From Flavihumibacter fluvii (GTDB taxonomy: Bacteria > Bacteroidota > Bacteroidia > Chitinophagales > Chitinophagaceae), in assembly GCF_018595675.2 (NCBI RefSeq), contig NZ_CP092333.1:1016001-1080000 (forward strand): a stretch of DNA of 64,000 bases, read 5' to 3'. The notes below the pieces were generated by a model. The model did not search any database. It saw only the letters and a program-made list of their open reading frames with translations, and was not told the DNA's origin. Position numbers and translations under genes: made by a program. How positions within the stretch are numbered: the stretch's first letter is position 1; every line of letters begins with the position of its first letter. Of this stretch, positions 30,115 to 39,634 are shown in pieces.

Positions 30115-30146
30115 TTTGTTGGGTAAAACATCGCACCTTATCTTTG
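30115..30146 (+). promoter_or_regulatory. Promoter of the SRP RNA gene
   Basis: TTTG at 30115-30118, 20 bases, then TATCTTTG at 30139-30146. Both elements match the Bacteroidota sigma-ABfr consensus exactly. The RNA fold begins about 4-5 bases after the box, which gives a ruler for the other promoters in this window. Confidence 0.85.
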
Positions 30147-30149
30147 CGC

Positions 30150-30246
30150 CGGCAGGTCTTACACGGCCAGCTCCTGCTGAACTCCCCCAGGGTCGGAAGA
30201 CAGCAAGGGTAGGTGGTTGTAGCGGTGCGATGTAATCAGCCTGCCA
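30150..30246 (+). ncRNA. ffs: Signal recognition particle RNA, small bacterial type
   Basis: About 97 bases. The conserved tip loop is read directly: GGTCGGAAGACAGCAAGGGT at 30191-30210, the SRP RNA helix 8 with GGAA tetraloop and the asymmetric AGCA loop that binds Ffh. The ends pair, GGCAGGT near 30151 with GCCTGCC at 30239-30245. A T-run (30247-30253) follows. It directs ribosomes making membrane proteins to the Sec translocon with Ffh and FtsY. Ends are estimated to within a few bases. Confidence 0.93.
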
Positions 30247-30264
30247 TTTTTTTCCCCTTTTTTT
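30247..30264 (+). terminator. T-rich terminator of SRP RNA
   Basis: The closing stem of the SRP RNA is followed directly by ATTTTTTT, then CCCC and another run of seven Ts, which can act as its intrinsic terminator. Confidence 0.6.
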
Positions 30265-31025: not shown

Positions 31026-31429
31026 CTCTTCGGTGTATTGACCGATGTCTCTGCTGGTAGTGATTCGTTATCCTCATTCACCTTGATGAATAGGGTAGTG
31101 GTGAGCGATAATTTCGGATTGCGTTTATAGGTTGCAGTTATAGTAACCTTTTCTCCCCGGAAATTACGGTCGATAATCAGGTTGTTCCCTTCGAAACTGC
31201 CACTGGTACTGCTAAAGTCGAGGTCCTTACCGGTGAGTGGCACCCATTTCCCTCCAAAGGGTTGTCCATCTACATTAATATAATTGTGCACCCCTTTTTT
31301 CAGGCTGTCAGTATACAGGTGAAAGGCAATAGTATCGATGCCCTGCGCCTTTACCGTTGTGGTTGTACAGGTGCTGAACACAATCCCGCAAAGTATTAAT
31401 AGAGAAGTTGGTCGCGCTGCCTTTTTCAT
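31004..31429 (-). CDS. Secreted protein of unknown function
   Basis: 141 residues. Signal peptide 1-28, ending VKAQG; a Cys at 21 in STCTTTT might be a weak lipobox. The mature part has two or three predicted beta-strand stretches (FHLYTDSLKKGVHNYINVDG, NLIIDRNFRGEKVTITATY, LSLTTTLFIKV) and a basic tail KRKRKGNR. It looks like a small immunoglobulin-like or jelly-roll domain. No family was recognised. Its ATG overlaps the sua5 stop by 4 bases, so it is translationally coupled to sua5, although the link in function is not evident. Confidence 0.7.
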   Translation of the reverse strand: MKKAARPTSLLILCGIVFSTCTTTTVKAQGIDTIAFHLYTDSLKKGVHNYINVDGQPFGGKWVPLTGKDLDFSSTSGSFEGNNLIIDRNFRGEKVTITATYKRNPKLSLTTTLFIKVNEDNESLPAETSVNTPKRKRKGNR

Positions 31430-32430
31430 TGGGTTAGGGGTTTTAGAAACTGTCCGGCCTCAGTTGATGCCCGCTTAAGCCGGTCATTGATCGCCCTCCC
31501 CAGTCCGCGATCGGGAAATTCTTGTGCAATGATCAGGTCAATATCCATCTCATCAGCAAGTCGCATAGTTGCAAAAAGACGGCGAGCAGCTTCTGAGAGG
31601 TCTGCCGATGGGGATAATTGAAACTGGTAGGCAGTTGGGATTTCCTTGTAAGTCTGGTTCAGAGATATGGTTACGATACGTGGAATAGGATCTGTTTGAT
31701 GGGCCTGGGCGATCAGGCTATCTGCATTACCTAACAATAGCGGGTGATTGGTGGCATAATGCCTGGCCAGCATTCCGGGGGCAACCGGGTTATCCACAAA
31801 TCCGCCTTCCGGCAGGTTCACTGGACCAATGACTGCCTCAATAGCTTCGGTCGTGATGCCCCCATATCGCAGTATTCGTGGAATAGGTTCCAGAAAGGAT
31901 ATTATAGTAGATTCAAGGCCTATCTGGCATTCTCCACCATCAAGTATATAATTGACCTGGTCGCCCAATTGCTCAGATACATGTGATGCCTTTGTCGGAC
32001 TCACTAGTCCGGATGGGTTAGCACTAGGGGCAGCCAGTGGAAAGTCCAGAAGGTTCAGCAATTGAAGGGTCATGGGATGGTTAGGGATCCTGATAGCGAC
32101 TGCCGGCGTTCCGGCTGTAACAATTCCGGGGACTTTTGATGAAGTTGGAATAAGGTAGGTGAGGGGGCCCGGACTGAATTTTTCAGCTAGTGCAAGTGCC
32201 TTGGCTGGAAACCGGAGGTCAAGTTTTTCTAATTGTGCCAGGTTGGCAATGTGAAGGATAAGCGGATTGAATTGCGGCCGGTTCTTAACTTCAAAAATCC
32301 TGGTCACAGCGACTTCATCCAGGGCATTTGCTGCCAGTCCATATACCGTTTCAGTCGGAATGGCCACCAACTCACCCGCTTTCAGGTGGCTGGCCGCCCT
32401 CTTTATATCAGTTCCAACTTTTTCGTTCAT
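31426..32430 (-). CDS. sua5: L-threonylcarbamoyladenylate synthase
   Basis: 334 residues from the ATG at 32430 (MNEKVGTDIKRAASHLKAGE). The frame extends to 32514, but that stretch holds no family sequence. The YrdC domain has PTETVYG at 25-31, KNRP at 49-52 and SAN at 136-138, the ATP/bicarbonate/threonine site. The C-terminal Sua5 domain covers about 205-334. It makes threonylcarbamoyl-AMP for the t6A37 modification of tRNA. All key residues are intact, unlike the paralogue at 11570-12085. Confidence 0.96.
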   Translation of the reverse strand: MNEKVGTDIKRAASHLKAGELVAIPTETVYGLAANALDEVAVTRIFEVKNRPQFNPLILHIANLAQLEKLDLRFPAKALALAEKFSPGPLTYLIPTSSKVPGIVTAGTPAVAIRIPNHPMTLQLLNLLDFPLAAPSANPSGLVSPTKASHVSEQLGDQVNYILDGGECQIGLESTIISFLEPIPRILRYGGITTEAIEAVIGPVNLPEGGFVDNPVAPGMLARHYATNHPLLLGNADSLIAQAHQTDPIPRIVTISLNQTYKEIPTAYQFQLSPSADLSEAARRLFATMRLADEMDIDLIIAQEFPDRGLGRAINDRLKRASTEAGQFLKPLTQ

Positions 32431-32478
32431 TCCCCAAATATACACCCACTGGGTAGTACCTGTCAGCTGAAGAAAAGA

Positions 32479-32511
32479 TTTGGTAGTTTGGTTGGATTCG
32501 CTATATTTTTG
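32479..32511 (+). promoter_or_regulatory. Promoter of the his operon
   Basis: TTTG at 32479-32482, a 21-base spacer, and TATTTTTG at 32504-32511, a full Bacteroidota promoter match. Transcription should start at about 32515-32517, only 3-5 bases before the ATG of the leader peptide. It lies in the divergent region between sua5 and hisG. Confidence 0.75.
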
Positions 32512-32519
32512 CACCCATT

Positions 32520-32570
32520 ATGAAACAATTTACGCAACAACATCACCATCATTTCTTGCCATCGAGGTAG
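32520..32570 (+). CDS. hisL: his operon leader peptide with four consecutive His codons
   Basis: A 16-residue reading frame, MKQFTQQHHHHFLPSR, with His codons CAT-CAC-CAT-CAT at 32541-32552 and a TAG stop at 32568-32570. It is read between a perfect promoter and a terminator placed just before hisG, the classic layout of ribosome-mediated attenuation. When charged tRNA-His is short, a ribosome stalls on the four codons. The leader starts 8 bases after the -7 box, so it has almost no 5' leader and no Shine-Dalgarno sequence. By analogy it has no function as a protein. Confidence 0.88.
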   Translation: MKQFTQQHHHHFLPSR

Positions 32571-32636
32571 GCGATGATGTTTTGCGTGGATCTATAAAAC
32601 ATTTGAAGGCTTACCTCTGGTAAGCTTTTTTCTTTT
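32532..32636 (+). promoter_or_regulatory. his attenuator with mutually exclusive RNA helices
   Basis: Three helices can be drawn. First, ACGCAA-c-AACATCA (32532-32545), covering the first His codons, pairs with TGATGTTTTGCGT (32575-32587), 13 bp with one bulge. Second, the antiterminator: GAGGTAGGC (32564-32572), overlapping the leader stop codon, pairs with GCTTACCTC (32609-32617), 9 bp with one G-U. Third, the terminator: GCTTACC (32609-32615) with GGTAAGC (32619-32625). A ribosome that reaches the stop codon covers the antiterminator arm, so the terminator forms. A ribosome stalled on the His codons leaves it free, so hisG is read. This logic is inferred; pairings are direct. Confidence 0.82.
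32606..32636 (+). terminator. his attenuator terminator
   Basis: Stem GCTTACC/GGTAAGC (32609-32615 with 32619-32625), extended by G-U and A-T pairs, three-base loop, followed by TTTTTTCTTTT. It lies 12 bases before the hisG ATG. Confidence 0.85.
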
Positions 32637-32647
32637 AATACCTGTGT

Positions 32648-33508
32648 ATGCAACAAAAACTAAGGATCGCCATACAAAAGAGCGGTCGATTGTATGAAGA
32701 ATCCGTCAAACTACTGAAAGATTGCGGGGTTGATGTTAAAAATGGCATCAATAAACTCAAAACCGAAGCAGAGAATTTTCCCCTGGAGATCTATTTTCTC
32801 CGTGATGATGATATCCCTCAGTATGTGGAAGACGCCGTTGCCGATATCGGTATAGTTGGTGAAAATGTTGTATATGAAAAGAATAAAAAAGTGCAGATTG
32901 TTGAAGAATTGGGTTTTGGGAAATGTCGGTTAAGCGTTGCCGTTGGGCGGAAGGAAGAGTACTCAGGAATTGCCTATCTGCAGGGAAAACGGATCGCAAC
33001 CACTTATCCGGTATTAGTCAAAAAATTCCTGGATGAAAAAGGTGTCCAGGCTGAAATACATGAGATCAGCGGATCTGTTGAAATAGCACCCGGTATTGGT
33101 TTGGCAGATGCCATTGTGGACCTTGTGAGCAGTGGGTCTACCTTGTTCATGAATGGTTTAAAGGAAGTTGAACCCGTATTGAAAAGCCAGGCAGTCTTAA
33201 TCCGTAATGAACAGCTGGATGCCGGCAAATTGAAAATACTGGATAGGCTATTATTCCGTATTCGGGCAGTTAAAAAAGCCAAAAACAATAAATATGTGTT
33301 ATTAAATGCTCCGAATGATAAACTTCAGGATATTATTGCACTGCTGCCTGGAATGAAAAGCCCAACCGTATTGCCTCTCGCCGAAGAAGGCTGGAGTAGT
33401 GTTCACAGTGTATTGAGTGAAAACCAGTTCTGGGATATCATTGAGCAATTGAAGGAAGCGGGGGCGCAGGGAATTCTTGTGATACCTATTGAAAAAATGA
33501 TTATTTAA
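32648..33508 (+). CDS. hisG: ATP phosphoribosyltransferase (long form)
   Basis: 286 residues, catalysing the first step of histidine synthesis (PRPP plus ATP). The catalytic part has LRIAIQKSGRLYEESVKLL, YFLRDDDIPQYVEDAVADIG and DAIVDLVSSGSTL, the PRPP-binding loop. The C-terminal 75 residues form the HisG_C regulatory domain (LNAPNDKLQDIIALLPG) that binds histidine for feedback inhibition, so it needs no HisZ. First gene of the left his unit and directly downstream of the his attenuator. Confidence 0.97.
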   Translation: MQQKLRIAIQKSGRLYEESVKLLKDCGVDVKNGINKLKTEAENFPLEIYFLRDDDIPQYVEDAVADIGIVGENVVYEKNKKVQIVEELGFGKCRLSVAVGRKEEYSGIAYLQGKRIATTYPVLVKKFLDEKGVQAEIHEISGSVEIAPGIGLADAIVDLVSSGSTLFMNGLKEVEPVLKSQAVLIRNEQLDAGKLKILDRLLFRIRAVKKAKNNKYVLLNAPNDKLQDIIALLPGMKSPTVLPLAEEGWSSVHSVLSENQFWDIIEQLKEAGAQGILVIPIEKMII

Positions 33509-33519
33509 ACAGTTGATCC

Positions 33520-34827
33520 ATGCAAGTATTTAAATACCCTGAACCGGAAAACTGGACAGATATCCTCCGGCGTCCGGTAATGGATAATCTTCGTTTATTG
33601 GATACCGTTCAGGAAATTCTGAAAACTGTTCGCGAAAAGGGCGATACTGCGTTATTAGATTTTACCAGACGGTTTGATGGGGTGGAATTGGACTCATTGG
33701 AAGTGAACCAGTGGGAAATTGATACAGCAGGAGTAGTATTACCTGTAAATTTAAAAGCTGCAATCCAGGTCGCAGCTAACAATATCCGGAAATTTCACCT
33801 GGCGCAGGTACAGCGCCCGGAAGTAATTGAAACAATGCCTGGCATAAGGTGCTGGCGGAAATCTGTTGGTATTGAAAAGGTTGGACTTTATATTCCCGGC
33901 GGCACTGCACCATTGTTCTCAACCATACTGATGCTCGGAATACCAGCCTCAATCGCGGGTTGTAATGAGATTGTTTTATGCTCCCCACCAGATAAAACAG
34001 GAAAACTTCACCCGGCTATTTTATATACAGCATCACTTGTTGGCATTACAAAAATCTATAAAATTGGTGGTGTTCAGGCCATTGCTGCGATGGCATTTGG
34101 TACAACCACCGTACCGAGGGTATTTAAAATATTCGGTCCGGGTAATCAGTATGTTACAGCTGCCAAACAACTGGTACAACAACAAGGTATAGCCATTGAC
34201 ATGCCTGCTGGTCCCAGCGAAGTAGCGATTTTTGCCGATTCCAGTGCAAATGCAGATTTTGTTGCTGCCGACCTGTTGAGCCAGGCTGAACATGGAGTGG
34301 ATAGCCAGGTCTTATTGGTGACCACTGATGAAAGTCTGATCGGGAAGGTCAAGGCAGCAATTATGCAACAAATTGAACACCTGGGCAGGAAAAATTTTGC
34401 GGCAAAAGCCCTTGATAACAGTAAGGCAGTACTTGTACCCGATGAAAATATTGGCATTCAGCTTTTGAATCAATATGCACCTGAGCACCTGATCCTGGCA
34501 ACAGACCGGGCAACAGCCCTTGCAGAAAAAGTTATTAATGCAGGATCTGTATTCATTGGGCATTTTTCCCCGGAAAGTGTTGGGGACTATGCCAGTGGCA
34601 CTAACCATACTTTGCCTACCAACGGATATGCAACAGCGTACAGCGGGGTAAGTCTTGATAGTTTTGTTAAGAAGATTACTTTCCAGCAATTGGAAGAACA
34701 TGGATTACAGCAGATTGCTGCCACCGTAATTACCATGGCTGAAGCTGAAGGGCTGGATGCCCATGCAAGGGCAGTTAGCCTGAGAACGGAAAGTGCCAGA
34801 TTTACCGGTGAAATAAAACCTGATTAA
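33520..34827 (+). CDS. hisD: Histidinol dehydrogenase
   Basis: 435 residues, full length for the NAD-dependent enzyme that oxidises histidinol to histidine in two steps. Family motifs: GLYIPGGTAPLFSTILMLGI, IAAMAFGTTTVPRVFKIFGP, DMPAGPSEVAI, DLLSQAEHG, QYAPEHLIL and DYASGTNHTLPT. The zinc-binding and catalytic His residues fall in these last three. It follows hisG by 11 bases and is followed by hisC after 22. Confidence 0.97.
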   Translation: MQVFKYPEPENWTDILRRPVMDNLRLLDTVQEILKTVREKGDTALLDFTRRFDGVELDSLEVNQWEIDTAGVVLPVNLKAAIQVAANNIRKFHLAQVQRPEVIETMPGIRCWRKSVGIEKVGLYIPGGTAPLFSTILMLGIPASIAGCNEIVLCSPPDKTGKLHPAILYTASLVGITKIYKIGGVQAIAAMAFGTTTVPRVFKIFGPGNQYVTAAKQLVQQQGIAIDMPAGPSEVAIFADSSANADFVAADLLSQAEHGVDSQVLLVTTDESLIGKVKAAIMQQIEHLGRKNFAAKALDNSKAVLVPDENIGIQLLNQYAPEHLILATDRATALAEKVINAGSVFIGHFSPESVGDYASGTNHTLPTNGYATAYSGVSLDSFVKKITFQQLEEHGLQQIAATVITMAEAEGLDAHARAVSLRTESARFTGEIKPD

Positions 34828-34849
34828 TTATTTGCTAAACAACATTGTT

Positions 34850-35902
34850 ATGTTCAACCTGGATGTCCTGATCCGCCCCAATATAAAATCACTGGTGCCT
34901 TATTCTTCAGCACGTGATGAATTTAAGGGAGATGCCAAAGTATTCCTTGATGCCAATGAGAACTCATTGGGATCACCACTGACAAAATGGTATAACCGCT
35001 ATCCTGATCCTTTGCAATGGGCTATAAAGGAAAAGCTCTCCATCGTAAAGGGGGTTGCCCCAAAAAATATTTTCCTGGGTAATGGAAGCGATGAATGTAT
35101 TGATATCCTGATCAGGGCGTTTTGTGAGCCCGGGATGGATAATATTGTTATTGTGCCGCCAACTTACGGAATGTATGAAGTAAGCGCCAATATTAATAAT
35201 GTTGCCATCAGGAAAGTACCGCTGACGACTGATTTCCAGCTGGACCTGCCTGCGCTGGAAGAAGCTGTTGATGAACGTACCAAAATAATATTTTTATGTT
35301 CGCCCAATAATCCCACCGCAAACTCACTGAACCGGGAAGATGTCGAGATCCTGCTGAACAATTATTTTGGTATTGTTGTGATGGATGAGGCCTATATCAA
35401 TTTCTCCCGGCAGAAATCCTTTGTGCTTGAACTGGAAGATTATCCTAACATGGTGGTTTTGCAAACCCTTTCCAAAGCATGGGGACTGGCGGCATTAAGG
35501 GTGGGTATGGCTTTTGCTTCTGAAGCAATAATTGGTGTCATGAATAAAATCAAACCGCCTTATAATATTAACCAGGCTTCACAAGACCTGGTATTAAAGG
35601 CCCTTGATGAGGTTGACCAGGTAAATGAAATGATCAGGTTACTGGTGCAGGAAAGAACAAGACTTGAAAATACTTTACCAGGGCTAAATTGCGTATTGAA
35701 AGTCTATCCATCTGATGCTAATTTCCTGCTGGTTAAAGTAATCGATGCAAAAAAGATCTACAAGGATCTTTTAGAAAAAGGGATTGTGGTCCGTGACAGA
35801 AGTAATGTAATACTTTGTGACGATTGCCTCAGGATTACTGTTGGTACTGAAAAAGAGAATGATGCACTGATACAGGCTTTAAAATATCATAACAACCCTT
35901 AA
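34850..35902 (+). CDS. hisC: Histidinol-phosphate aminotransferase
   Basis: 350 residues from the ATG at 34850 (MFNLDVLIRPNIKSL); a TTG at 34832 would add six residues. PLP-dependent fold type I. The Schiff-base lysine is in TLSKAWGLAALRVG at about residue 209. Also seen are LDANENSLGSP, GNGSDECIDILIRAF, CSPNNPTAN and VVMDEAYINF. It converts imidazole-acetol phosphate to histidinol phosphate. The next gene, an unrelated dehydrogenase, begins one base after its stop. Confidence 0.95.
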   Translation: MFNLDVLIRPNIKSLVPYSSARDEFKGDAKVFLDANENSLGSPLTKWYNRYPDPLQWAIKEKLSIVKGVAPKNIFLGNGSDECIDILIRAFCEPGMDNIVIVPPTYGMYEVSANINNVAIRKVPLTTDFQLDLPALEEAVDERTKIIFLCSPNNPTANSLNREDVEILLNNYFGIVVMDEAYINFSRQKSFVLELEDYPNMVVLQTLSKAWGLAALRVGMAFASEAIIGVMNKIKPPYNINQASQDLVLKALDEVDQVNEMIRLLVQERTRLENTLPGLNCVLKVYPSDANFLLVKVIDAKKIYKDLLEKGIVVRDRSNVILCDDCLRITVGTEKENDALIQALKYHNNP

Positions 35903-35903
35903 A

Positions 35904-37196
35904 ATGAATTTTATGGTAAAATACATATTCATTTTTGTCTTAATTGTTTCTGTGTGCACCTGTACTTTATGGGCCAGGGATACGACCGCACTTAAAATTC
36001 TGGCAGGTTCACCAGAAGGTACCGGATTGGTTCTGCCAACTGGGTTTACGGCTGACATTGTTGCTGATGACCTGGGCAATGCCCGGCATATTGCTACAGC
36101 ACCGAATGGTGTATTTTTTGTTAAGCTCGAAAAGCTGAAAAATGGAAAGGGCATTTTCCGCTTTGAAGACAAAGACAAGGATGGGAAATATGAAACAGTA
36201 TCGGGTTTTGGTAGTTATGCAGGGACCGGAATTGCCATTAAAAATCAATGGTTGTATGCATCTTCCGATGACCAGGTTTTTCGCTATAGGTTAAATGAGA
36301 AATTTGAAGTGTTGGATCCTGATAACCCAAATTTGGTAATTACCGGATTAGTCAACAAGCACCAGCATTCGTCAAAAAGTATTGCATTGGATAATGCAGG
36401 GAATATTTATGTAAATATTGGTGCACCTTCAAATGCATGCCAGCTTGCTGACCGTACCAAGGGATCGCCAGGACAGGATCCTTGCCCGATCCTTGAAACT
36501 GCTGGTGGTATCTGGCGCTTTAAAGCTGATAAGGGCAATCAATCCTATAAAGAAGGTACCCGGTACGCAACAGGTCTTAGAAATGTAGTTGGACTCGACT
36601 GGAACACTGAAAATGAAGCATTATTCGTGATGCAGCATGGTCGTGATCAATTGGCGCAATTGCATGGTGAAAAATATACAGCCGGTCAGGGTGCGGAACT
36701 GCCGGCAGAAGAAATGTTTATGGTTAAAGAAGGCGCTAATTGCGGTTGGCCCTATTGTTATTATGATCCGGTTCAAAAGAAAAAAGTACTTGGTCCGGAA
36801 TATGGTGGTGATGGCCAAAAGGAAGACCGTTGTTCGGGTATGCAAATGCCCGTGATTGCCTTTCCTGCACATATGGCACCAAATGCATTACTTTTTTATA
36901 CGGGTGATTTATTTCCTTCCAGGTATAAGAATGGGGCTTTCATCGCTTTCCATGGTTCCTGGAACCGTGCCCCGTTGAAACAGGAGGGCTATTTTGTGGC
37001 TTTTGTACCTTTTTCAAAAGGGCAGCCAAGTGGTGATTGGGAAATTTTTGCCAACGGATTTGCAGGCGTTTCGGAAGTGAAATCACCCAGGGATGCGAAA
37101 CATCGGCCTTGCGGACTTGCACAAGGTGCAGATGGTGCCCTGTATGTTACTGATGATGCGAAAGGAACAGTTTTCAGGATAAACTTTCATAAATAG
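35904..37196 (+). CDS. PQQ-type sugar dehydrogenase-like protein (sorbosone dehydrogenase family)
   Basis: 430 residues with a signal peptide (1-24, VSVCTCTLWA). Beta-propeller sequence of the soluble glucose/L-sorbosone dehydrogenase type: ADDLGNARHIATAPNGVFFV near the start, GLVNKHQHSSKSIALDNAGN, TGLRNVVGLDWNTENEALFV, FPAHMAPNALLFYTG and FIAFHGSWNRAP. Such periplasmic enzymes oxidise sugars or related aldehydes, often passing electrons to cytochrome c. The cytochrome c gene follows 9 bases later. Odd: the pair lies inside the his operon between hisC and hisB, with no link to histidine synthesis. Substrate and cofactor need experiment. Confidence 0.85.
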   Translation: MNFMVKYIFIFVLIVSVCTCTLWARDTTALKILAGSPEGTGLVLPTGFTADIVADDLGNARHIATAPNGVFFVKLEKLKNGKGIFRFEDKDKDGKYETVSGFGSYAGTGIAIKNQWLYASSDDQVFRYRLNEKFEVLDPDNPNLVITGLVNKHQHSSKSIALDNAGNIYVNIGAPSNACQLADRTKGSPGQDPCPILETAGGIWRFKADKGNQSYKEGTRYATGLRNVVGLDWNTENEALFVMQHGRDQLAQLHGEKYTAGQGAELPAEEMFMVKEGANCGWPYCYYDPVQKKKVLGPEYGGDGQKEDRCSGMQMPVIAFPAHMAPNALLFYTGDLFPSRYKNGAFIAFHGSWNRAPLKQEGYFVAFVPFSKGQPSGDWEIFANGFAGVSEVKSPRDAKHRPCGLAQGADGALYVTDDAKGTVFRINFHK

Positions 37197-37205
37197 CAGG
37201 ATTGA

Positions 37206-37622
37206 ATGAAAAGTATCAAATTGCTTGTTGGATTGGTCTTAATGGTAGAAATTTTATTTAGTTTCACATATCCCCAACCACTTCCCAAAGGATCAATGGC
37301 CAGGGGAAAAAAAGTCTACGAAACGTATTGCCTCGCCTGCCACCAGGCAGATGGAAGTGGGGTTCAGCGGATGAATCCACCGCTGATCAGGAGTGAGTAC
37401 GTTTCCGGTGATACCAAACGACTTATCAATATTGTTTTACAAGGCTTAAATGAAGAAATTGAAATTGATGGGGATACCTATTCCACGCCAATGCCTGCAC
37501 AGGGGCATTTAAATGACAGGGAAATTGCAGATGTTTTGACGTATATCAGGAATAGTTTTGGTAATAAAGGTAAAAGCATTGATCCGGTCCAGGTAAATAC
37601 TGAAAGAAAAAAGTTGAAATAA
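37206..37622 (+). CDS. Cytochrome c, class I
   Basis: 138 residues. Signal-like hydrophobic N-terminus (1-21). One haem site CLACH (Cys42, Cys45, His46). The probable distal ligand Met lies in [10 protein letters not shown]. The C-terminal half is very similar to the cytochrome domain fused to the large lipoprotein at 55976-58234: both have LINIVLxGL and a [11 protein letters not shown] ending. Likely electron acceptor of the sorbosone dehydrogenase-like protein encoded just before it. Sits 5 bases before hisB. Confidence 0.93.
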
Positions 37623-37627
37623 TATAT

Positions 37628-38773
37628 ATGGCTAAGCGAATTTTATTTATCGATAGAGATGGCACCCTTATTTATGAAGCTCCGCCAACCTATCAGCTCG
37701 ATTCTTTTGATAAGCTCACTTTTTACCCGAAGATGTTTGAATATATGGGCAGGATCGCCAGGGAGCTGGATTATGAATTGGTTTTAGTAACCAACCAGGA
37801 TGGACTAGGTACAGCATCTTTCCCTGAAAATACATTTTGGCCGCTGCAGAATATGGTGATGAAAAGCCTGGAAGGCGAAGGGATATTTTTCAGTGCAGTA
37901 CATATCGACAAGAGTTATCCGTCGGAAAACCTTCATACCCGGAAACCTGGAATTGGAATGCTTACAGGGTATCTGAATAACCCTGATTATGACATTGAAA
38001 ACTCTTTGGTAATTGGTGACCGTATAACGGATGTTCAGCTCGCTAAAAACCTTGGTTGTAAAGCGATCTGGATGAACCTCGATCCAGAACTGGGTGGTGA
38101 TGAAATTAAAGACCAGGCAGCAGCATTACGCAAGGATACAGTCGCGTTGGAAAGCACTGATTGGGCTGAGATATATTCCTTCCTTAAGCTCGGGTTACGT
38201 AAAGTTGTACATGAACGTAATACCAATGAAACTAAAATAAAAGTGGCCGTTAATATGGATGGCAGCGGAATATCAGCCATCTCAACAGGATTAGGTTTTT
38301 TTGACCACATGCTTGACCAGATCGCCCGTCATGGGAAAATCGACCTTAGCATTGAAACAAAGGGTGACCTGCATATTGATGAACACCATACCATCGAAGA
38401 TACAGCGCTGGCGTTAGGCGAAGCCTTTGCCAAAGCCCTTGCGGATAAACGTGGAATGGAACGATATGGATTTGCATTGCCCATGGATGAAGCAGATGCT
38501 AAAGTGTTAATTGATTTCGGTGGCCGGAACTGGCTGGTTTGGAATACCTCCTTCCAGCGTGAAAAGATAGGTGAAGTGCCCACTGAAATGTTCTTCCATT
38601 TTTTTAAATCATTCAGTGATGCTGCGAAATGCAACCTGAATATTGAATGCAAAGGTGAAAATGAACACCATAAAATAGAAGCAATTTTCAAGGCATTCGC
38701 AAAAGCAATACGTATGGCAGTAAAAAGGGATCCAATCAGTAATTACTTGCCTTCAACAAAAGGGGTATTATAG
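37628..38773 (+). CDS. hisB: Bifunctional histidinol-phosphatase / imidazoleglycerol-phosphate dehydratase
   Basis: 381 residues, a fusion. Residues 1-165 are a HAD phosphatase (FIDRDGTL with Asp9 and Asp11, [23 protein letters not shown]). Residues about 188-381 are the IGP dehydratase ([53 protein letters not shown]), the His-rich motifs that bind Mn. It carries out the dehydratase and phosphatase steps. Last gene of the left his unit; the next gene is convergent. Confidence 0.97.
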
Positions 38774-39505: not shown

Positions 39506-39512
39506 TGCTCGC

Positions 39513-39575
39513 ATGAACATGAATCTTAACAATCTACAGTGGTGGTGGCATACAAACTCTTCAGGGGTGCTGTAA
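39513..39575 (+). CDS. trpL: trp operon leader peptide with three consecutive Trp codons
   Basis: A 20-residue frame, MNMNLNNLQWWWHTNSSGVL, with TGG-TGG-TGG at 39540-39548 and a TAA stop at 39573-39575; a second ATG at 39519 is possible. It precedes a terminator and trpE, so it fits a tryptophan-sensing attenuator leader. Rfam describes a Bacteroid-trp motif upstream of trp genes in this phylum with Trp-rich leader frames, and this should be a member. The ATG lies 7 bases after the -7 box, giving almost no 5' leader. Confidence 0.9.
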   Translation: MNMNLNNLQWWWHTNSSGVL

Positions 39576-39634
39576 TGTTATTACTGTGTTTGAACACATA
39601 ATTCAGGGCCCCGATTTACCATCGGGGCTTTTTT
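39561..39634 (+). promoter_or_regulatory. trp attenuator (antiterminator and terminator)
   Basis: The segment TCAGGGGT (39561-39568), just after the Trp codons, can pair with GCCCCGA (39608-39614), seven pairs with one bulged A and one G-U. This competes with the terminator stem, GCCCCGAT (39608-39615) with ATCGGGGC (39621-39628). A ribosome at the leader stop would cover 39561-39568 and allow termination; one stalled on the first Trp codon would leave it free. A small hairpin TGTGTT/AACACA lies between (39585-39598). Pairings are read from sequence, the mechanism is inferred. Confidence 0.78.
39608..39634 (+). terminator. trp attenuator terminator
   Basis: Perfect 8-bp stem GCCCCGAT/ATCGGGGC around TTACC, followed by TTTTTT. 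33 bases before the trpE ATG. Confidence 0.9.

Follow-up and report, generated by a model that had tools for sequence, protein, structure and literature searches.

The histidine biosynthesis genes of Flavihumibacter fluvii are preceded by a short region (32479-32647) which raises the question of whether, and how, their transcription is attenuated. We analysed this region within a window of 64,000 nucleotides, whose coordinates are used throughout; the genome is a single contig of 5,001,887 bases. On the plus strand, hisG (ATP phosphoribosyltransferase, 32648-33508; TIGR00070, 199.2 bits against a cut-off of 75.75) is followed by hisD (histidinol dehydrogenase, 33520-34827; TIGR00069, 514.5 bits), hisC (histidinol-phosphate transaminase, 34832-35902; TIGR01141, 365.6 bits) and hisB (bifunctional histidinol-phosphatase / imidazoleglycerol-phosphate dehydratase, 37628-38773; NF003937, 516.8 bits against 443). 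The interval between hisC and hisB (35904-37622) encodes on the same strand a glucose/sorbosone-dehydrogenase-like protein and a cytochrome c. Among named organisms, Flavihumibacter profundi has the closest HisG, with 92% identity. Upstream, the gene of an L-threonylcarbamoyladenylate synthase (31426-32514) lies on the minus strand, divergent from hisG. The sole match at Rfam gathering level in the window is a Bacteroidales small SRP RNA (30143-30250, 96.7 bits).

An initial annotation had proposed a complete ribosome-mediated attenuator in front of hisG. Direct reading of the sequence found the 16-residue His leader frame where it had been placed: MKQFTQQHHHHFLPSR occupies 32520-32570 on the plus strand, starts with ATG at 32520, stops with TAG at 32568-32570 and carries its His codons at 32541-32552. 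The promoter-like motifs are present as well. A TTTG at 32479-32482 is followed, after a spacer of 21 nt, by the -7 box TATTTTTG at 32504-32511, the two delimiting a predicted plus-strand promoter (32479-32511). In Flavobacterium the -7 box lies at -12 to -5, and the start is taken 5 nt past the last G of TAnnTTTG (PMC9723704). Judged from the position of the box, transcription is predicted to start at 32516 (plus or minus a few nucleotides), about 4-5 nt before the leader ATG.

Downstream of the promoter the plus-strand transcript can be divided into four segments. In the minimum-energy fold of 32479-32647, a 1:2 helix encloses an inner hairpin and the terminator is kept (z-score -2.75; equalled or exceeded in stability by 1 of 200 shuffles). 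The outer arm of segment 1 (arm A, 32528-32545), which holds Thr-Gln-Gln-His-His codons, pairs with arm C of segment 2 (32575-32591), and the inner arm (A2, CTTGCC, 32555-32560) pairs with 32566-32571. A helix between the His-codon region and segment 2 had been annotated as 13 pairs with 32575-32587; the helix exists, but it consists of 17 pairs and one bulge (32528-32545 with 32575-32591). Arm B, GAGGTAGGC (32564-32572), also in segment 2, holds the leader stop codon. Its pairing with 32609-32617, in an antiterminator of 9 pairs including one G-U that spans the stop codon, is borne out by the sequence. Positions 32576-32584 of arm C can alternatively pair with arm C' of segment 3 (32595-32603). 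This second antiterminator helix and the inner hairpin 32555-32560/32566-32571 were absent from the initial annotation. Segments 3 and 4 form an intrinsic terminator hairpin at 32605-32629, ahead of hisG as annotated, with a stem of 11 pairs (32605-32615/32619-32629), a loop of 3 and a T-rich stretch reaching 32636. The locus thus combines a leader ORF containing codons for the amino acid made by the operon with an intrinsic terminator between that ORF and the first structural gene.

The RNA from arm B to the terminator folds as the antiterminator, with 9 + 9 pairs at -20.2 kcal/mol, which is its minimum-energy fold. The RNA beyond a ribosome placed at the stop codon folds as the terminator (-12.4 kcal/mol). 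As far as predicted folding energies go, the proposed switch between two mutually exclusive folds works on paper, the antiterminator excluding the terminator and being freed by a stall on the His codons.

We then compared the region with its counterparts in Chitinophagaceae, where hisG is present in 112 of 147 genomes; these gave 109 loci (G129 and G033 were left out, and L030 lacked upstream sequence). Of the 109, 103 have a His-rich leader ahead of hisG. It is missing from L002, L006, L040, L061, L064 and L050, the last being cut by a contig end inside the leader region; L050 counts as a miss here and is left out of the 108 loci used below. Among named relatives, 80 loci were taken, 78 were evaluable (L198 and L239 being too short), and 74 of these have the leader. 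A strict pattern, requiring four or more His among 6 residues of a short ORF at most 300 nt from hisG, was found in 94/108 loci. The same density of His was found in none of 108 reverse strands, none of 108 stretches 600-900 nt upstream, none of 29 hisG interiors and none of 10 first-order-Markov shuffled sets. Within the His cluster, the third base of CAN codons is T in 631, C in 136, A in 1 and G in 1 (T or C in 767/769), a pattern indicative of selection on the encoded amino acid. In alignment A1, which comprises 109 loci selected from the 119 of standard layout among 161 unique leaders, most indels of the His run have a length divisible by three.

The terminator is present in all 161 unique leaders, at -9 kcal/mol or better in 160 of them as compared to 8 of 108 control stretches. 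None of seven leaderless loci (L002, L006, L040, L061, L064, L208 and L226) has a terminator of this strength; L002 keeps a weak hairpin that narrowly misses the cut-off (-8.6 kcal/mol). The terminator disappears along with the leader. Two loci scored as lacking a His-rich leader, L240 and L246, keep the terminator together with an apparent leader with few His codons. In L246, terminator and arm are kept and the leader has hardly any His codons, so that it may be decaying or re-targeted. Loss of the His codons or of the pairing arms in close relatives, which the initial annotation had named as evidence against its proposal, was not seen: both are kept in Chitinophagaceae.

The gaps introduced by MAFFT were uneven in the Leu-Pro codons, and we therefore compared pairing energies within and between loci. 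The energy of each pair of partners within its own locus was set against that obtained with the partners of other loci, uncorrected for the tree, with pairings that the model does not predict as controls. Pairing within the locus was favoured for A:C (p 1.3e-12), A2:B (p 6.6e-8), B:D (p 4.2e-9), D:E (p 5.9e-27) and C:C' (p 9.4e-4), and for the antiterminator as a whole (p 1.3e-7). None of the five control pairings (A:D, A:E, C:D, A:C' and C':E) was favoured within the locus; A:D and A:C' differed from the cross pairings at p <0.05, in the opposite direction.

Covariation, which had been suggested as a check of the helices, gave a clear answer for the terminator and a weak one for the antiterminator. 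On A1, the terminator shows compensatory changes in 8 of 10 pairs and covariation above that of all 500 shuffles. For the antiterminator B:D, 98.6% of the cells are paired, double changes occur in 2 of 7 pairs (6 cells), and the covariation score was reached by 16 of 500 shuffles. This weakness is explained by the sequence constraints on the helix, since the stop codon takes up three of its positions and its partner is also needed for pairing with the 3' arm of the terminator. An unguided scan of A1 ranked terminator pairs first, with no clear sign of 1:2 or 2:3, and RNAalifold likewise returned the terminator alone. Arm B is typically GGTAAGCC or GGTAGGCC, a near copy of the terminator 3' arm, so that both compete for the same 5' arm. 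Median energies in the family are -19.0 kcal/mol for 1:2, -18.8 kcal/mol for 2:3 and -16.4 kcal/mol for 3:4.

The spacing of these elements is compatible with a ribosome acting as the switch. The distance from the last His codon to arm B has a median of 12 nt (interquartile range 12-13), and distances from the His codons vary less for arm B (sd 3.8 nt) than for the stop codon (sd 6.8 nt). Assuming a ribosome footprint that extends 12 nt past the first A-site base, arm B is free in 156/161 loci when the last His codon is in the A site, and covered in 143/161 when the ribosome is at the stop codon (not fully covered in 18/161). Overlap of arm B with the stop codon is seen in 124/161 leaders and is absent from the other 37, some leaders stopping just before the arm and others up to about 26 nt after it. 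Where overlap or coverage is missing, the covering step must differ. In ten leaders (L055, L060, L066, L071, L074, L076, L077, L082, L089 and L109) the frame reads through arm B and stops about 14-29 nt later. These leaders keep the distance of arm B to the His codons, and covering at the stop must therefore work differently there. The parts, their conservation, their pairing within the locus, the two exclusive folds and the spacing are all apparent from sequence and comparison.

The promoter motifs are also widespread. A perfect TAnnTTTG lies at most 60 nt from the leader ATG in 147/161 unique leaders, 122 of which have a TTG 17-22 nt further upstream of the -7 box. The leader 5' UTR predicted from this motif has a median of 5 nt and is shorter than 10 nt in 106/147. 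If the farthest in-frame ATG is taken as the leader start instead, the box is found in 120/161, the median remains 5 nt and 96 are below 10 nt. A start downstream of 32570 had been named as a sign against the attenuator; the promoter motifs give no hint of one, the hisG ATG having a -7 box at 3-16 nt upstream in none of 103 Chitinophagaceae loci (the background is 10 of 3560 other ATGs). Judged from these promoter motifs, the leader of Chitinophagaceae is predicted to be entered by near-leaderless initiation. Ribosome-mediated attenuation needs a leading ribosome close to the RNA polymerase, and the retention of the leader in 103/109 loci with a predicted start less than 10 nt from the ATG (106/147) argues for tight coupling between the two. 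For comparison, 5' UTRs below 10 nt make up 3.7% in Bacteroides thetaiotaomicron (PMC7366714) and leaderless mRNAs 5.5% in Flavobacterium psychrophilum (PMC9723704). Shine-Dalgarno sites are hardly used in Bacteroidota (PMC9723704; also general knowledge).

Considered together, these data make it highly likely that the leader of the his genes is a four-segment, trp-like, ribosome-mediated transcription attenuator. From the parts of this attenuator we infer where transcription starts, that the leader is translated, that the ribosome stalls and the polymerase reads through, and that the genes respond to histidine. Transcription would start a few nucleotides before the leader ATG. With no translating ribosome, segment 1 (the His and Leu-Pro codons) would pair with segment 2, and the terminator 3:4 would form. 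With ample charged tRNA-His, the ribosome would reach the stop codon inside arm B and cover this arm, and the terminator would again form. When histidyl-tRNA is scarce, the ribosome would stall on the four His codons and open 1:2, leaving arm B free. B plus C would then pair with C' plus D, taking the 5' arm of the terminator, and the RNA polymerase would read on into hisGDC.

We extended the analysis to other leaders in the same genome. A scan with the leader pattern gave four matches, among which only the one before hisG was taken as a His leader; L260, the one other frame read, was rejected as a second one, not being in the His register. The covariance model R1 detected hisG and a region before asd (aspartate-semialdehyde dehydrogenase) at 32.8 bits. 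The latter was rejected as a second His copy, being a different (Lys/Thr) leader, and a quick look at three further matches (E 0.098 to 0.69) revealed no leader-like frame. The region before asd (L313 / L335) encodes the Lys/Thr leader MTMMKHTTKIKKQLPNQEGV, followed by a terminator. A KHTKRTKK-like leader with a terminator precedes asd in 17 of 29 Chitinophagaceae loci examined, and in none of the other 12. By its codons, such a leader would respond to lysine and threonine, both end products of the aspartate pathway. Another leader lies before trpE (39508-39632): it reads M(NM)NLNNLQWWWHTNSSGVL, with three Trp codons, and is followed by a strong terminator at 39605-39631. A tandem-Trp leader was found before trpE in 30 of 31 loci examined (the 30 best family loci and the window). 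The trpE leader did not match Bacteroid-trp (RF01692) and reached 21.2 bits against 41 for Trp_leader.

Across the phylum, hisG was found in 171 of 198 genomes. Outside Chitinophagaceae, 67 upstream regions were taken and 65 scored (L165 and L173 had no HisG match and were not scored; L157 is a weak match). Of the 65 scored loci, 52 have a frame with three or more His among 6 residues, with convincing sets in families f5 (6/6), f15 (10/10), f22 (14/14), f33 (4/4) and f3 (3/3). Such a frame was absent from single loci of f12, f16, f18, f24 and f34 and from two loci each of f13, f14 and f17. The candidates in f9, f10, f20, f28, L142 and L153 were chance-like or doubtful, and we rejected the idea that every family of the phylum has the leader. 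A covariance model built from A1 gave matches with E 0.001 or better in 87 of 198 genomes of the class; its 20 best loci comprise the window and 19 others, each of which has hisG downstream.

The stems vary in sequence from family to family. In f5, f15, f33 and partly in f2 and f8, the leader is followed by a terminator whose sequence differs strongly, with a matching arm near the leader stop codon. The match of this arm exceeded at least 95 of 100 shuffles in 4/6 loci of f5, 6/10 of f15, 3/4 of f33, 3/5 of f2 and 2/3 of f8. In f22 (L111-L115, L121, L129-L132, L134 and L169-L171) the terminator is absent from 12 of 14 loci and weak in two, and the spacer to hisG is poorer in G (6% versus 20%) and richer in C (25% versus 17%) than in Chitinophagaceae. 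The leaders of f22 often read ..HHAHHGHHH.., and in many the stop codon of the leader sits in the loop of a small hairpin. The output in f22 is possibly Rho-dependent. In f3 (L143-L145), His-rich leaders without detectable terminator were found in 3/3 loci. Extending the near-leaderless start to the whole phylum is unsupported: in f15 the box, found in 6/10 loci, lies at least 21 nt from the ATG.

One can imagine, and we raise it tentatively as a reading that we doubt more than we believe, an old His-sensing leader common to Bacteroidota whose outputs have been exchanged between lineages. Stems would have been replaced with the His spacing kept, f22 would have lost its terminator and acquired a rut-like spacer suggestive of Rho, and Chitinophagaceae would use near-leaderless entry (predicted 5' UTR median of 5 nt). 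If so, such entry would let a phylum that makes little use of Shine-Dalgarno sites couple the first ribosome to the RNA polymerase.

Other explanations of the hisG leader have to be weighed against attenuation by a translating ribosome. A structured 5' region that ends in a terminator would equally suit a riboswitch or a T-box-like element sensing histidine or tRNA-His directly, with an incidental His-rich ORF. We regard this as extremely unlikely: the 64-kb window contains no match at gathering level to an Rfam T-box or riboswitch model, and the His codons are kept at the level of the amino acid, as seen in their third bases and in the indels of the His run. Alternatively, the intrinsic terminator might not be the output, the leader affecting hisG translation or operating through Rho, and the G-poor, C/T-rich spacers of the f22 loci that have a His leader and lack the terminator lend this idea some support at a distance. 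Within Chitinophagaceae the terminator is universal among unique leaders and covaries strongly, and the start of hisG lies outside every conserved stem, which makes action at the level of translation or Rho very unlikely here.

Nor would the peptide need to be regulatory if the terminator merely ended an upstream transcript. His-rich peptides can bind metal, as is generally known, and MKQFTQQHHHHFLPSR could then be a small functional protein, for example a metal-binding one. The synthase gene upstream is on the opposite strand, transcribed away from hisG, so that the terminator does not end its transcript and none is needed here. Leader and terminator are moreover lost together, and the spacing from leader to arm is fixed. 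We give this explanation almost no credence, and the leader is very probably a real attenuator, working as the initial annotation proposed from its sequence.

The literature qualifies the novelty claimed by the initial annotation, for which such an attenuator had not been described in Bacteroidota. A 2021 study of Flavobacterium by Guerin and co-workers mentions strong indications of attenuation by leader peptides ahead of amino-acid operons, and a structured 5' element upstream of hisG common to Flavobacteriaceae, for which its main text gives no sequence, peptide or structure (PMC9723704). The idea is therefore partly in print, without such detail in that text. The element concerns the same phylum and the same gene, but the f5-type loci analysed here use other stem sequences. 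A his attenuator of Chitinophagaceae is not described in the literature searched, which included few subscription papers; the survey of attenuation in bacteria by Lopatovskaya (2010) may already list such leaders. The kind of attenuator is known, while its anatomy, spread and predicted near-leaderless start were not found in the literature searched. Its distinctive features are a predicted initiation almost at the 5' end, stems exchanged from one family to another, and the leaders of f22 and f3 that lack a terminator. The leader would also offer a ready reporter of histidine starvation.

Among known RNA families, His_leader (RF00514) scored best, and shares with this locus a leader peptide with His codons before hisG, an intrinsic terminator and alternative helices. 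The comparison, advised by the initial annotation, gave 17.5 bits (E 1.4), far below the gathering score of 49, and we therefore do not file the leader as a member of this family. His_leader likewise had no gathering-level match in 13 other his-leader loci, and a set of 18 related his, trp and asd loci matched no Rfam family at this level, Bacteroid-trp (RF01692) included. Bacteroid-trp is a candidate cis-regulatory RNA for trp genes in Bacteroidetes (PMC2864571), hence of the same phylum, and has no match at gathering score in the 64-kb window. The leader lacks an Rfam entry of its own though it is well kept in Chitinophagaceae, and an alignment of the A1 type supplies the basis for one.

Short upstream ORFs at or near the transcript 5' end also occur in mycobacteria, where leaderless upstream ORFs serve as cysteine attenuators; these belong to another phylum and differ in their output stage. 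In enterobacteria, the his leader has a layout of six segments (A-F), in contrast to the four found here as in trp; its peptide shares only the His run with MKQFTQQHHHHFLPSR, and the 5' UTR predicted here is a few nucleotides long. The trp attenuator of Escherichia coli shares the logic of 1:2, 2:3 and 3:4 and a stop codon close to segment 2; it responds to another amino acid, whereas in Chitinophagaceae the stop codon lies inside the antiterminator arm itself in 124/161 leaders.
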